64,000 nucleotides of DNA from Poseidonibacter ostreae. Its GTDB lineage: Bacteria > Campylobacterota > Campylobacteria > Campylobacterales > Arcobacteraceae. Under the pieces are notes generated by a model that saw only the letters and a list, made by a program, of their open reading frames with translations, was not told the origin of the DNA and searched no databases. Below, one piece after another: positions 42,445 to 48,571 of the stretch. The DNA lies in the NCBI RefSeq assembly GCF_009208075.1, contig NZ_WFKJ01000001.1, positions 62,001 to 126,000 on the forward strand, written 5' to 3'. The position numbers and the translations under genes are program-made. Within the stretch, counting starts at the first letter, position 1. Each line of letters opens with the position of its first letter.

Positions 42445-43110
42445 ATGAAACAATATCAAACATATAAATGTAACGCATGTGGATGTGAAGTAGAAGTACA
42501 AGAAGCAAACGATAAAGCAAAATTATCATGTTGTGGAACTGAAATGGATATGATTACAGAAAACTTAACTGCGGTTAATTTAATGAAAGCTTTTGCTGGT
42601 GAATCACAAGCTAGAAATAAATATGAATTTTTTGCAGAAATTGCATTTGAAGAAGGTTTACATAGAATTGCAAGATTTTTTAAAGAAGCAGCTGAAAATG
42701 AAAAATACCATGCAATTGCTGAATTAAAAGCTTATAATAAATTAGTTAATAATGTTGAGTTAGACTCTACTGCTAAAAATATTCAATATGCAGCTGATGG
42801 TGAAAAATATGAACATGAAGAGATGTATCCAAACTTTGAAGCAATTGCAAAAGAAGAAGGTTTAAAAGAAATAGCAAGAATGTTTAAAGGAATTGGAAAA
42901 GTTGAAGTTGAACATGAAAGAGAATACTTAGAATTAAAAGAAGAGTTAATTAATGAAGGCTTTTTAGAATCAGATGATAAAGATGAAGAGTGGGTTTGTG
43001 AAGTATGTGGTCATGTTCATAGAGGTAAAAAGCCACCAAAACAATGTCCTTTATGTGCAGTTGAAAAAGAGTACTTCAAAAAAAGAAATAAAGACGTAAC
43101 TGTAGGATAA
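42445..43110 (+). CDS. Desulforubrerythrin (copy 1)
   Basis: 221 residues in three parts: an N-terminal desulforedoxin-like iron centre (CNACG...SCCGTEM, residues 8-35), a four-helix diiron domain (about 40-170; EYFAE-type helices ESQARNKYEFF, ENEKYHA, EHEREYLE) and a C-terminal rubredoxin (CEVCGHVHRG...CPLC, 188-206). This order is that of Campylobacter desulforubrerythrin, which reduces hydrogen peroxide in the cytosol. It follows a PerR-type gene on the other strand and precedes a second copy by 64 bp. Confidence 0.95.
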   Translation: MKQYQTYKCNACGCEVEVQEANDKAKLSCCGTEMDMITENLTAVNLMKAFAGESQARNKYEFFAEIAFEEGLHRIARFFKEAAENEKYHAIAELKAYNKLVNNVELDSTAKNIQYAADGEKYEHEEMYPNFEAIAKEEGLKEIARMFKGIGKVEVEHEREYLELKEELINEGFLESDDKDEEWVCEVCGHVHRGKKPPKQCPLCAVEKEYFKKRNKDVTVG

Positions 43111-43174: not shown

Positions 43175-43828
43175 ATGAGACAGTATGAAACGTATAGATG
43201 TAATAAATGTGGAAATGAAGTAGAAGTACAAAATGTTGGTGGTGGAGCACTTCACTGTTGTGGTGAAAAAATGGAAATGATTACAGAAAACTTAACTGCT
43301 GTTAATTTAATGAAAGCTTTTGCTGGTGAATCAATGGCTAGAAACAAGTATGAATATTTTGCAAAAATAGCTCAAAAAGAGGGTTATAGAGATATTGCAG
43401 AACATTTCCAAAGAGCTGCAAATAATGAAAAAATGCATGCAAAACTTGAGCTTAAAATGTATAACCAAATGACAATGGGTAAAGAGTTTGGAGATACTGT
43501 TGAAAACCTTAAATATGCAATTGAAGGTGAATCTTATGAAAATGTTACAATGTATCCAGACTTTGCAGCAATTGCAAAAGAAGAAGAGCATAAAGAAGTA
43601 GCAAGAATATTAGCAGGTATTGGTAAGATTGAAGTTGAACATGAAAACATGTATCGAAATCTATTAAAAAGACTTGAAACTGGTGCAGAGCATGAAAGTG
43701 ATGATGCAGATGAAGAGTGGATTTGTGAAGTATGTGGACATGTTCATAGAGGGAAAAAAGCTTTAAAAGTTTGTCCTGTTTGTAAGCATCCTCAAGAGTA
43801 TCAATCAAGATTAAATTCTAAAAAGTAA
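43175..43828 (+). CDS. Desulforubrerythrin (copy 2)
   Basis: 217 residues with the same three-part layout as copy 1: Cys-rich start (CNKCG...HCCGEKM), diiron domain (ESMARNKYEYF, NNEKMHA, EHENMYRN) and rubredoxin (CEVCGHVHRG...CPVC). The N-terminal segment is shorter by two residues. A 57-bp stretch (43277-43333) differs from copy 1 (42550-42606) at one base, although the genes diverge elsewhere. It peroxidises with copy 1 and may differ in electron donor. Confidence 0.94.
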   Translation: MRQYETYRCNKCGNEVEVQNVGGGALHCCGEKMEMITENLTAVNLMKAFAGESMARNKYEYFAKIAQKEGYRDIAEHFQRAANNEKMHAKLELKMYNQMTMGKEFGDTVENLKYAIEGESYENVTMYPDFAAIAKEEEHKEVARILAGIGKIEVEHENMYRNLLKRLETGAEHESDDADEEWICEVCGHVHRGKKALKVCPVCKHPQEYQSRLNSKK

Positions 43829-43837
43829 TAAAAAAAA

Positions 43838-43880
43838 GGATATCTTTGGTAATATAAGAAAAAATTACCGGAGATATTCC
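43838..43880 (+). promoter_or_regulatory. Hairpin enclosing the ribosome site of the downstream TTG-started gene
   Basis: GGA-TATCT-TT-GGTAAT (43838-43853) pairs with ATTACC-GG-AGATA-T-TCC (43864-43880): 14 Watson-Crick pairs, two T-G wobbles and one bulge, with a 10-base loop. The 3' arm contains the GGAG ribosome site (43870-43873) and ends right before the TTG start. A weak TTGTTT tract follows, so it may also terminate the rubrerythrin transcript. Confidence 0.65.
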
Positions 43881-45479
43881 TTGTTTAAAATAGTTCTATT
43901 ATGTTTATTTGCATTAAATATATATGCAAAAGATTTCGTCATTGCTAGTTATAACGCTGAAAATTTATTTGATTTAAAAAAACAAAATAGCGAATATAAA
44001 GAGTTTATTCCAAATACTTCTTCAAAATGGAATCAAAATAACTTCAATATTAAGATAAATAATGCAGTAAAAGTAATAAAAGATATTAATGCTGATATTA
44101 TTGCTCTTCAAGAAATAGAAAATAGAGCTGTACTTCAACTTTTATTAAAAAAACTACCCTCTTATAAATATTCCTCTTTTGCAAAATATTCAAGATCATC
44201 AGTTGGCGTTGGATTTTTATCAAAAATTAAAATAAAAAGCAATAGACAAATTGATGTAAAGTTTACAAATAAAATCTTTAGACCTATTTTAGAAACTACT
44301 TTTGAAATTGAAAATAAAGAGTTTAAAATTTTCAACAATCATTGGCCTTCAAAAAGAGTAGCTGAAAGTTATAGAGTTAAGTTTGCTAAAAAGCTTCAAG
44401 ATAGACTTTCAAAACTTCCAAGAGATTATGACTATATTTTATTAGGAGATTTTAATTCGAATTATGATGAAAATAGAAGTTTTAAATATAATAAAAAATT
44501 AAATAATACTTCTGGTATTACTGGAATAAATCAAGTATTAAATACAACAGTAGAAAATAAATATATTACTTATGATGATGTTTTAAAACAAAAAAGAAAA
44601 GTGCATTTCAATCTTTGGTTAGACCTTCCATCAAATGATAGATTTTCAAATAAATATAGAACACAAAGTAATACTCCTGATAATATTATTCTATCTCCTG
44701 CACTTCTTGATACAAAAAATATTTCGTATATTCACAAATCTTTTAAAGTTTTTAAGCCAAATTATCTTTATAGAAATAACAAAGTTTTAAGATGGCAAAT
44801 GAAAGGGAATAGGTACAATAAAGTTCACGTAGGAGCTGGGTATTCTGACCATTTACCAATTTATGCTTCATTTTCAACATCAAAAGAGAAAACAAATCCT
44901 ATTAAAGAAATTAAAAAAAATAGTAAAAAAGAGCTAAATAAGATTAGTGACTTATATAATAAAATGAAACTCATTGAACCTGCAATTATAAAAGATGCAG
45001 TTGTTATTTATAAAACAAAAACAGGTGCTATTATAAAACAAAAAAACAATAGAGCTATTTATATTTATAAGCATGCACAAGAACTAAAATTAGGATATTC
45101 ATATACTTTACAAATAAATGAAATAGTTGATTATAATGGCTTAAAAGAAGTAGATTCATTTTCAGTTTTAGAAGAAAATGGCCGATTTAAAAACTATAAA
45201 TCTTTATTTATAAATGCTAAGAAAAATGATATTTTCAATCCAAATAATCAAAATGAAATAGCTTTTAATTTAAGAGGCGTGATAAAAAAAAGAAAACTAT
45301 ATATAGATGATTCAAATACTATCTTAAAAGGTAAATCAATAAAAATATTTGCAAAAAACAAACAAGACCTACCAAAACAAAATGAAACTATAACTTTTAA
45401 AAATGCACATATTGGAGTTTATAGAGGTGTTCCACAAGTACTAATTCATTCAAGTTCTGATTATCAAGTAGGAAATTAA
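43881..45479 (+). CDS. Secreted endonuclease/exonuclease/phosphatase family protein
   Basis: 532 residues starting at TTG 43881, supported by GGAG seven bases upstream and a signal peptide right after it (FKIVLLCLFALNIYA). The nuclease domain (about 18-335) has SYNAENLFD, ALQEIENRA, FNNHWPSK, LGDFNSNYDENRS and SDHLPIYASF, i.e. the DNase I-like metal and catalytic residues. The last 190 residues have no motif I recognise; they are rich in Lys and strands, with IKDAVVIYKTKTGAIIKQ and KIFAKNKQDLPK. It is probably an extracellular or periplasmic nuclease. It overlaps murJ by one base. Confidence 0.88.
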   Translation: MFKIVLLCLFALNIYAKDFVIASYNAENLFDLKKQNSEYKEFIPNTSSKWNQNNFNIKINNAVKVIKDINADIIALQEIENRAVLQLLLKKLPSYKYSSFAKYSRSSVGVGFLSKIKIKSNRQIDVKFTNKIFRPILETTFEIENKEFKIFNNHWPSKRVAESYRVKFAKKLQDRLSKLPRDYDYILLGDFNSNYDENRSFKYNKKLNNTSGITGINQVLNTTVENKYITYDDVLKQKRKVHFNLWLDLPSNDRFSNKYRTQSNTPDNIILSPALLDTKNISYIHKSFKVFKPNYLYRNNKVLRWQMKGNRYNKVHVGAGYSDHLPIYASFSTSKEKTNPIKEIKKNSKKELNKISDLYNKMKLIEPAIIKDAVVIYKTKTGAIIKQKNNRAIYIYKHAQELKLGYSYTLQINEIVDYNGLKEVDSFSVLEENGRFKNYKSLFINAKKNDIFNPNNQNEIAFNLRGVIKKRKLYIDDSNTILKGKSIKIFAKNKQDLPKQNETITFKNAHIGVYRGVPQVLIHSSSDYQVGN

Positions 45480-46780: not shown

Positions 46781-46796
46781 AAATAGCCCTATTTTT
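46779..46796 (+). terminator. Terminator after murJ
   Basis: AAAAATAG, CC, CTATTTTT, a self-complementary 8-bp arm pair ending in a T run, immediately downstream of the murJ stop (46778-46780) and overlapping it. Confidence 0.6.
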
Positions 46797-46861
46797 AAAT
46801 TTTAGTAATTAATTACAATTTAGCTATAATGGCTTTTTTAATAAATATTACTAGGATTTAA

Positions 46862-48571
46862 ATGAAAGAATTTTTCAAACAATACTCCCCTTTTTATAAA
46901 AACTATAAACTTCAATTTATATATGCCTTCATAGGAATTATTTTAGTTGCAAGTGCAACAGCAGGAACTGCTTATGCTATTCAGCCTTTATTAGATGATA
47001 TTTTTATTAATAAAGATGAAGAAATGCTATATATGATGCCTGTTTTTGTTATTCTTTTATATACAGCAAAAGGTTTTGGACGATATATTCAAGCATATTA
47101 TATCTCTTTTATTGGACAAGATATTACAAGAATTGTAAGAGATAGACTTTTTTCACATGTTCTAAACTTAGATATGGATTTCTTTCAAAAAAAACATGGT
47201 GGGGAACTTGTAAGTAGAATTATAAATGATATAAATAGAATTCAACAAGCAGTCTCAAACTATGTTGCAGAATTTATAAGAGAAGTTCTTACAATTGTTG
47301 CACTTATTGGTTTAGTAATTTATCACTCACCTGAACTTGCTTTTTATGGACTAGTTGTTCTTCCACTTGCAATTTGGCCTTTATCAAAACTTGCTAAAAG
47401 AATGAAAAAACTTTCATTCAAATCACAAGAATCAAATGCTGATATTACATCATCATTAAGTGAATCTTTCAATAATATAGAAATAATCAAAGCAAATTCT
47501 ACAGAAGAAATAGAAGCAAAGAAATTCTCAATTCATAATCTAAATTTCTTTAAATATAATATGAAAGCAGTTAGAACAAATGAATTAACCTCTCCTTTAA
47601 TGGAAATAATTGGATCACTAGCTTTTGCAGCTGTTATTTTAGTTGGAGGTTCAAAAGTAATTTCAGGAGAGCTTACAACAGGAACATTTAGTTCATTTAT
47701 TGCTGCTTTATTTATGTTATATACACCTATTAAAAGATTATCTTCATTATATAATAAAATGCAAGATGCCCTTGCAGCAAACGATAGAATTAATGAAATG
47801 CTTAATTCTAAAGCTACAATTATTTCAGGAAATAAAGAGTTTCCAGAAAATATAGAAAAAATATCATTTAATAATGTCTCATTAAACTATGGAGATTTTC
47901 AAGCTTTAAAAAGTATTAGTTTTGAAGCAAAAAAAGGTGATAAAATTGCACTTGTAGGAGATAGTGGAGGAGGAAAGTCTTCTTTAATCAATACTATAAT
48001 TAGATTTTATGATATTTCTGAGGGTGAAATAAAATTAAATGACAACTTATTAAATGAGCTTTCATTAAAATCTTTAAGAGAAAACATTTCAATAGTAACA
48101 CAAAGAGTTTATATATTTAATGACACAATAAGTGCAAACGTTGCTTATGGTTATGAAATAGATGAGAAAAGAGTAATTGAAGTATTAAAGCAAGCTCACG
48201 CTTATGATTTTGTATCGAAAATGGAAGATGGTATAAATACAAAACTTGATGAGTTTGGAACAAACTTATCAGGAGGTCAAAGACAAAGAATTGCAATTGC
48301 AAGAGCATTATATAAAAAGCCTAAAATACTTATTTTAGATGAAGCAACTTCTGCTCTTGATAATGAAAGTGAGTCAATTATCTCACAAGTAATAGATGAT
48401 GTAAGTGTTGATAAAATTACATTTATAATTGCACATAGATTAAGTACTATTAAAAATGCTAGTAAAATTGCCGTATTTAAAGATGGTGAAATTATTGATA
48501 TGAATACAGAAGAAAATCTTTTAAAATCTTGTAAAGAGTATCAAAGATTATATAACTTAGCAAATATTTAA
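46862..48571 (+). CDS. msbA: ABC transporter, fused permease/ATPase, MsbA-like
   Basis: 569 residues. Six membrane segments fill about 20-305, with RDRLFSHVLNLDMDFFQKKHGGELVSRIINDI in the coupling region. The ATPase has GDSGGGKSS (near 371), LSGGQRQRIAIARALY and LILDEATSALD. This is the half-transporter layout of lipid exporters; the place beside pyrD, an M16 peptidase and dapA matches msbA in Campylobacter as I recall. It would flip lipid A-core. A paralogous exporter cannot be ruled out by sequence alone. Confidence 0.85.
   Translation: MKEFFKQYSPFYKNYKLQFIYAFIGIILVASATAGTAYAIQPLLDDIFINKDEEMLYMMPVFVILLYTAKGFGRYIQAYYISFIGQDITRIVRDRLFSHVLNLDMDFFQKKHGGELVSRIINDINRIQQAVSNYVAEFIREVLTIVALIGLVIYHSPELAFYGLVVLPLAIWPLSKLAKRMKKLSFKSQESNADITSSLSESFNNIEIIKANSTEEIEAKKFSIHNLNFFKYNMKAVRTNELTSPLMEIIGSLAFAAVILVGGSKVISGELTTGTFSSFIAALFMLYTPIKRLSSLYNKMQDALAANDRINEMLNSKATIISGNKEFPENIEKISFNNVSLNYGDFQALKSISFEAKKGDKIALVGDSGGGKSSLINTIIRFYDISEGEIKLNDNLLNELSLKSLRENISIVTQRVYIFNDTISANVAYGYEIDEKRVIEVLKQAHAYDFVSKMEDGINTKLDEFGTNLSGGQRQRIAIARALYKKPKILILDEATSALDNESESIISQVIDDVSVDKITFIIAHRLSTIKNASKIAVFKDGEIIDMNTEENLLKSCKEYQRLYNLANI

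Follow-up and report, generated by a model that had tools for sequence, protein, structure and literature searches.

The analysed stretch of DNA (64,000 nucleotides of Poseidonibacter ostreae, contig NZ_WFKJ01000001.1, hereafter called the window) carries, in this order, a PerR/Fur-like gene on the − strand, two rubrerythrin genes, a hairpin, a gene for a nuclease of the endonuclease/exonuclease/phosphatase (EEP) family, and genes for MurJ and an MsbA-like exporter (Table 1). The nuclease reading frame comprises 532 open codons and matches Exo_endo_phos_3 with an E value of 1.1e-27, which bears out the original prediction of a TTG-started nuclease gene at this position, and relatives of the nuclease are present in 102 of 104 genomes of the family. 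The set of genomes from the same genus contains Poseidonibacter lekithochrous (L034), the locus of which is the same as that of G001 (L003). The stretch from 43281 to 43930, i.e., the second rubrerythrin gene and the intergenic region, is mostly nearer to the relative L007 (87–94%) than to L002 (86–91%), whereas the nuclease gene is nearer to L002, and recombination might have occurred close to the nuclease start. In the genome G002 (L005, upstream part), the stretch corresponding to the first rubrerythrin aligns to P. ostreae at only 48–62%, and another gene apparently lies there.

Table 1. Features of the rubrerythrin–nuclease locus and of a second hairpin of the same plan (positions refer to the window).
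Feature	Position	Strand	Remarks
First rubrerythrin gene	42445–43110	+	
Second rubrerythrin gene	43175–43828	+	Presumed origin of read-through RNA
A8 tract before the stem	43830–43837	+	Appears on the − strand as U8 following the hairpin; U-tract score of the − strand tail 6.16
Hairpin 5' arm	43836–43853	+	Contains CTTTGG, which pairs with the Shine-Dalgarno sequence; minimum free energy (MFE) structure, covariation
−10 box GGTAATAT	43848–43855	+	Overlaps the end of the 5' arm; gnTAnaAT type with one mismatch at the weak 'a'
Predicted start zone of nuclease transcription	43860–43864	+	In the loop or at the first 3'-arm base; placed by the 4–8 nt spacing of C. jejuni
Hairpin 3' arm	43864–43882	+	Bulge at 43877; contains the Shine-Dalgarno sequence and reaches the start codon; MFE structure
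Shine-Dalgarno sequence GGAG	43870–43873	+	Seven bases before the TTG at 43881; anti-Shine-Dalgarno duplex −6.6 kcal/mol
Nuclease gene	43881–45479	+	TTG start; signal-peptide-like N-terminus; EEP family
TTGTTT after the stem	43881–43886	+	Possible weak terminator tail; U-tract score 3.95
Second hairpin	46794–46862	+	Before the MsbA-like gene (46862–48571); AGGA in the 3' arm
−10 box GCTATAAT of the second hairpin	46823–46830	+	In the loop

The stem of the hairpin pairs 43838–43853 with 43864–43880 and consists of 16 pairs, two of them U·G, with a single bulged base in the 3' arm and a loop of 10 nucleotides. Folding thus confirmed the anatomy proposed in the original prediction, a 16-pair stem that ends at the base before the TTG and holds GGAG in its 3' arm, and the MFE structure adds two pairs (43836–43837 with 43881–43882) by which the stem enters the TTG codon by two bases. 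The fold has a free energy of −19.5 kcal/mol compared to a mean of −9.43 kcal/mol in shuffled sequences (z −3.73), and it was equalled by 1 of 200 shuffles. The hairpin was rejected as a repeated element, the only other match in the genome being one of 37 bp at 80% inside other sequence. On the − strand, the hairpin followed by U8 resembles a terminator for antisense RNA, although the stem there contains A·C mismatches.

The burial of the ribosome site, which had been proposed as well, is strong in the computed fold and depends on where the RNA begins. The predicted cost of opening the Shine-Dalgarno (SD) sequence at 37°C is 14.7 kcal/mol on RNA reading through from the rubrerythrins and 2.6 kcal/mol on RNA started by the nuclease's own promoter; it stays at 14.6–14.7 kcal/mol when about 50 to 280 upstream RNA bases are included and at 2.5–3.0 kcal/mol for all starts from 43858 to 43866. 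When the SD sequence was fixed and the upstream part shuffled, none of 100 shuffles buried it equally well, and the nuclease has the highest SD opening energy among 256 SD-bearing gene starts in 464 kb, comprising the window and 400 kb of the sister genome G003. In 41 regions with a rubrerythrin just upstream and a −10 box, the median opening cost is 8.7 kcal/mol on the long and 1.9 kcal/mol on the short RNA, and it is higher on the long RNA in 40 of the 41. As few as 5 or fewer of 100 SD-fixed shuffles reach the native value in 28 of these regions, while the remaining 13 are individually non-significant (e.g., L004, 26/100). A non-ATG start of the nuclease is kept throughout these 41 regions, TTG in 40 and GTG in one, as judged by a home-made start rule.

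The second element of the locus is a promoter nested in the 5' arm. In Campylobacter jejuni and Helicobacter pylori the sigma-70 −10 box is described as gnTAnaAT, located 4–8 nucleotides before the transcription start, and for C. jejuni it is reported that no −35 sequence was found (PMC3847290). Since the −10 box of the nuclease lies in the 5' arm, mRNA started from it should be without that arm; going by the sequence and this spacing, the nuclease's own mRNA should begin in the loop, too late for the hairpin to form. Conservation of the box was assessed in 94 distinct nuclease upstream regions, some of them from outside the family, by scoring the pattern G.TA..[AT]T at the right distance; start codons were assigned by a home-made rule, and duplicates and loci whose upstream sequence was too short had been dropped. 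Distant or partial loci of the family (G013, G015, G025, G028, G031, G032, G075, G082, G091, G092, G097) and matches consisting of fragments only (G112, G123, G124) were also left out of the counts. Among the 53 regions directly preceded by a rubrerythrin, 41 have the pattern (shuffle expectation 4.8). It is also found in all 16 regions that follow a divergent Fur-like gene (shuffle expectation 0.9) and in 5 of the 25 remaining regions (shuffle expectation 2.7). The other 12 rubrerythrin-linked genes lack this −10 box as well as the hairpin. In many relatives (L008, L010, L014, L075–L088) a stretch like TTTTACCTCTTAAAA, missing in P. ostreae, precedes the promoter; it is possibly an upstream promoter element or a terminator remnant.

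The architecture of the hairpin recurs across the Arcobacteraceae with compensatory changes. In 26 aligned hairpins, 89.8% of the cells pair, compared to 36–51% for structures slid by 1–3 columns, and 13 cells carry a double change (shuffle mean 5.3, as many in 0 of 500 shuffles; 1–5 in the slid structures). The covariation score is 0.177 versus 0.130 in shuffles (0/500 as high), four pairs show any double change (shuffle mean 2.2, 36/500 as high), and pair types are not more numerous than in shuffles. One-sided changes in the inner stem mostly preserve wobble pairing, the outer stem pairs are often unpaired in relatives, and RNAalifold, unaided, recovers 10 of the hairpin's pairs. In another genus group (L047, L106, L110, L111, L113) the hairpin is placed differently, with the partner of the SD sequence overlapping or following the −10 box, and in L106 it contains a double change, TGTC/GACA for TATC/GATA.

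One clade of an Aliarcobacter-like genus has no rubrerythrins at this place, and its upstream gene is divergent. Here all 16 regions retain the promoter, while the median SD opening cost is 3.3 kcal/mol and only 1 of the 16 lies above its SD-fixed shuffles. The difference in SD opening between divergent and rubrerythrin-linked regions gives a Mann-Whitney p of 5e-7, in which relatedness is not corrected for, and the nuclease genes of this clade also have weaker SD sequences. Eight divergent members have sequences long enough for a tree of 52 nuclease proteins, in which they group as one clade (100/100) that sits inside the hairpin-bearing relatives. The strong hairpin is lost where the source of read-through is lost, in one clade and hence in a single event.

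We consider it probable that the hairpin is a silencer of RNA reading through from the rubrerythrins, with the nuclease promoter nested in it. Transcription from the nuclease promoter itself would give an mRNA whose 5' end lies in the loop and whose SD sequence is free, polymerase arriving from the rubrerythrin operon would produce an RNA with both arms in which the hairpin hides the SD sequence, and a leaked rubrerythrin transcript would thus yield little or no nuclease. The fold and its conservation, the compensatory changes, the retention of the −10 box and the asymmetry between the strands are established computationally; we infer the precise start site, the occurrence of read-through and a real block of translation by the burial of the SD sequence.

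By analogy, the hairpin would work like the nested-promoter ribosome site hairpins of phage T4, such as those of gene e and I-TevI. In gene e, soc, and gene 49 of T4, the SD sequence or start codon is hidden in a helix on long RNAs started upstream, as predicted for the nuclease, and late promoters just upstream of gene e give a translated mRNA without the 5' strand (PMC3014915). For I-TevI, I-TevII, I-TevIII, and segB of T4 and mobE of Aeh1, a hairpin on read-through RNA and an RNA from a proximal promoter without the structure are described (PMC2988022); like the P. ostreae gene, these encode nucleases, and a comparable placement of the proximal promoter is predicted for the P. ostreae gene. 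However, T4 uses a late sigma factor for temporal control of a phage, while the nuclease lies on a chromosome with a housekeeping-type −10 box and no known timing signal, and the homing endonucleases are mobile elements of unrelated nuclease families, whereas the P. ostreae protein is a secreted-type nuclease of the EEP family and its gene neighbours are conserved. The transposase SD sequence of IS10/Tn10 and IS200 is likewise hidden by a fold of read-through RNA from outside. There the arms are inverted repeats of a mobile element, whereas around the nuclease no mobile element was detected and the arms do not represent the ends of one.

The hairpin might instead be mainly an intrinsic terminator of the rubrerythrin transcript that overlaps the nuclease start for want of space. 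P. ostreae and four relatives (L005, L006, L007, L011) lack a separate terminator, and their stem is longer and preceded by an A-tract; the terminator tail scores are 3.95 in P. ostreae and 3.4 in the four relatives. A simple terminator scan, which allows loops of 3–8 and is thus blind to a loop of 10, did not pick up the hairpin. In L002, L004, L008, L009, and L014, however, a separate hairpin with a T-rich tail lies between the rubrerythrin and the SD hairpin; such terminators resemble the nuclease hairpin in standing just past the rubrerythrin stop codon but are structures of their own located before it. The core hairpin is nevertheless retained in four of these relatives (L002, L004, L008, L014), so that termination is not its general role. 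Moreover, the tail is interrupted (TTGTTT, TTGATT) and the conservation of the 3' arm is centred on the SD sequence. Termination as the main function thus appears doubtful, and the proposal that the hairpin terminates the rubrerythrin transcript may apply in a narrower form: in the sub-lineage of P. ostreae, where a separate terminator is missing and the A-tract and TTGTTT are present, the hairpin may plausibly have taken over termination as well, if only weakly.

It had further been proposed that the hairpin could keep the nuclease untranslated as long as neither heat nor a protein nor an RNA opens it. Hairpins that hide the SD sequence in switches of this kind are found in other systems, and the start site at the nuclease is a predicted one; a switch on the nuclease's own mRNA (a thermometer or the target of a protein or sRNA) would need transcription to start upstream of the hairpin. 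The conserved −10 box within the 5' arm argues against this, because self-started mRNA should escape the hairpin: the predicted start lies in the loop, i.e., inside the hairpin, which does not fit a shut-off of the nuclease's own translation. Furthermore, the loop sequence varies among relatives, and the 64-kb window gave no Rfam match at the gathering score. The predicted SD opening cost falls from 18.5 kcal/mol at 20°C to 14.7 at 37°C and is still 11.6 at 50°C, for which reason an RNA thermometer was rejected and a heat switch is unlikely in this model. A switch on the nuclease's own mRNA is unlikely altogether, and silencing of read-through RNA stays the preferred reading.

At the level of DNA, the inverted repeat could be a palindromic operator overlapping the promoter and bound by a regulator such as a PerR-like protein. 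The repeat and the −10 box do overlap, and the PerR/Fur-like gene is found immediately beyond the rubrerythrin pair. An operator, however, is expected to be symmetric between the strands, while in 25 of 26 relatives the + strand folds more stably than the − strand because U·G pairs turn into A·C mismatches on the latter, and one U·G pair of the stem is invariant (26/26); this asymmetry points to a + strand RNA rather than a DNA palindrome. In addition, the promoter stays and the repeat goes upon loss of the rubrerythrins, the stem sequence differs from genus to genus, and GGTAAT-N(4-20)-ATTACC occurs at 6 sites in the genome compared to 4 for a reversed control, by which an operator with a regulon was rejected; the operator reading is very unlikely. 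Finally, it is highly improbable that a conserved promoter and a conserved SD sequence pair by chance and without function, since, although T-rich promoter sequence can pair with GGAG via U·G and 13 of the 41 linked regions lie inside the shuffle range, the hairpin itself exceeds all 100 SD-fixed shuffles, the stem shows compensatory changes and the divergent relatives keep the promoter and an SD sequence with pairing at shuffle level.

The same plan was observed at other genes. In the sister genome G003 (2.0 Mb), 1856 gene starts were examined, of which 1099 have an SD sequence by a home-made rule, and starts with a gap of 30–400 bases were compared to expectations from SD-fixed shuffles. An SD opening cost of at least 8 kcal/mol was found for 19 of 333 co-directional starts (2.4 expected) and 4 of 289 divergent starts (1.8 expected; Fisher p 0.003), and one of at least 6 kcal/mol for 47 (13.0 expected) and 15 (10.6 expected), respectively (p 1e-4). 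The nuclease ranks first among the 19. A −10 box could be scored for 32 of the co-directional cases that reach 6 kcal/mol, and for every one of these 32 the predicted transcription start lies past the arm that pairs with the SD sequence; with 29.4 expected from permutation, this is a weak test. In a 400-kb Aliarcobacter-like sample no clear excess of SD-burying structures was found among co-directional starts (5/72 with 2.6 expected at 6 kcal/mol, 1/72 with 0.5 expected at 8 kcal/mol); such structures may be widely used in Poseidonibacter only, or this sample may be too small. In all 8 genus members fetched, a thioredoxin-like gene (L281–L288; own genome L283) is preceded by an SD hairpin whose loop contains TATAAT-like boxes. 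Compensatory changes are visible by eye in these sequences, and pair counts are not given because the MAFFT alignment misplaced some of the 5' arms. The second hairpin of the window, before the MsbA-like gene, is found in P. ostreae, L033, L034, and L036 and not clearly in 11 other relatives. A ribA-like example of G003 (L251) was rejected as a conserved case, since it is weaker in L252 and L255, and L253 and L254 lack it. The G003 starts 1058340 (− strand) and 1170856 (+ strand; L183, L189) have identical upstream regions of 65 bases with SD hairpins and identical gene starts, apparently a repeated element.

We tentatively propose, as a possibility rather than an expectation, that promoter-nested SD hairpins are a common insulation between co-directional units in Poseidonibacter that adds to terminators by making leaked RNA untranslatable, the nuclease hairpin merging terminator, promoter, and ribosome site in one. 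While the trick is well known from phage biology, the nuclease hairpin is found on a bacterial chromosome, in several genera and seemingly at more than one gene of the sister genome; among papers under open licence no chromosomal case of such a nested-promoter SD hairpin was recognised, which is no proof of absence. The signature, an anti-SD sequence followed by a −10 box and then an SD sequence, is easily scored and can be tested on existing maps of transcription start sites. If the proposal is true, bacteria with small AT-rich intergenic gaps would separate adjacent genes at the level of translation, and both operon prediction and the interpretation of RNA-seq data would overlook this separation, as RNA covering a gene would not mean that the gene is translated.
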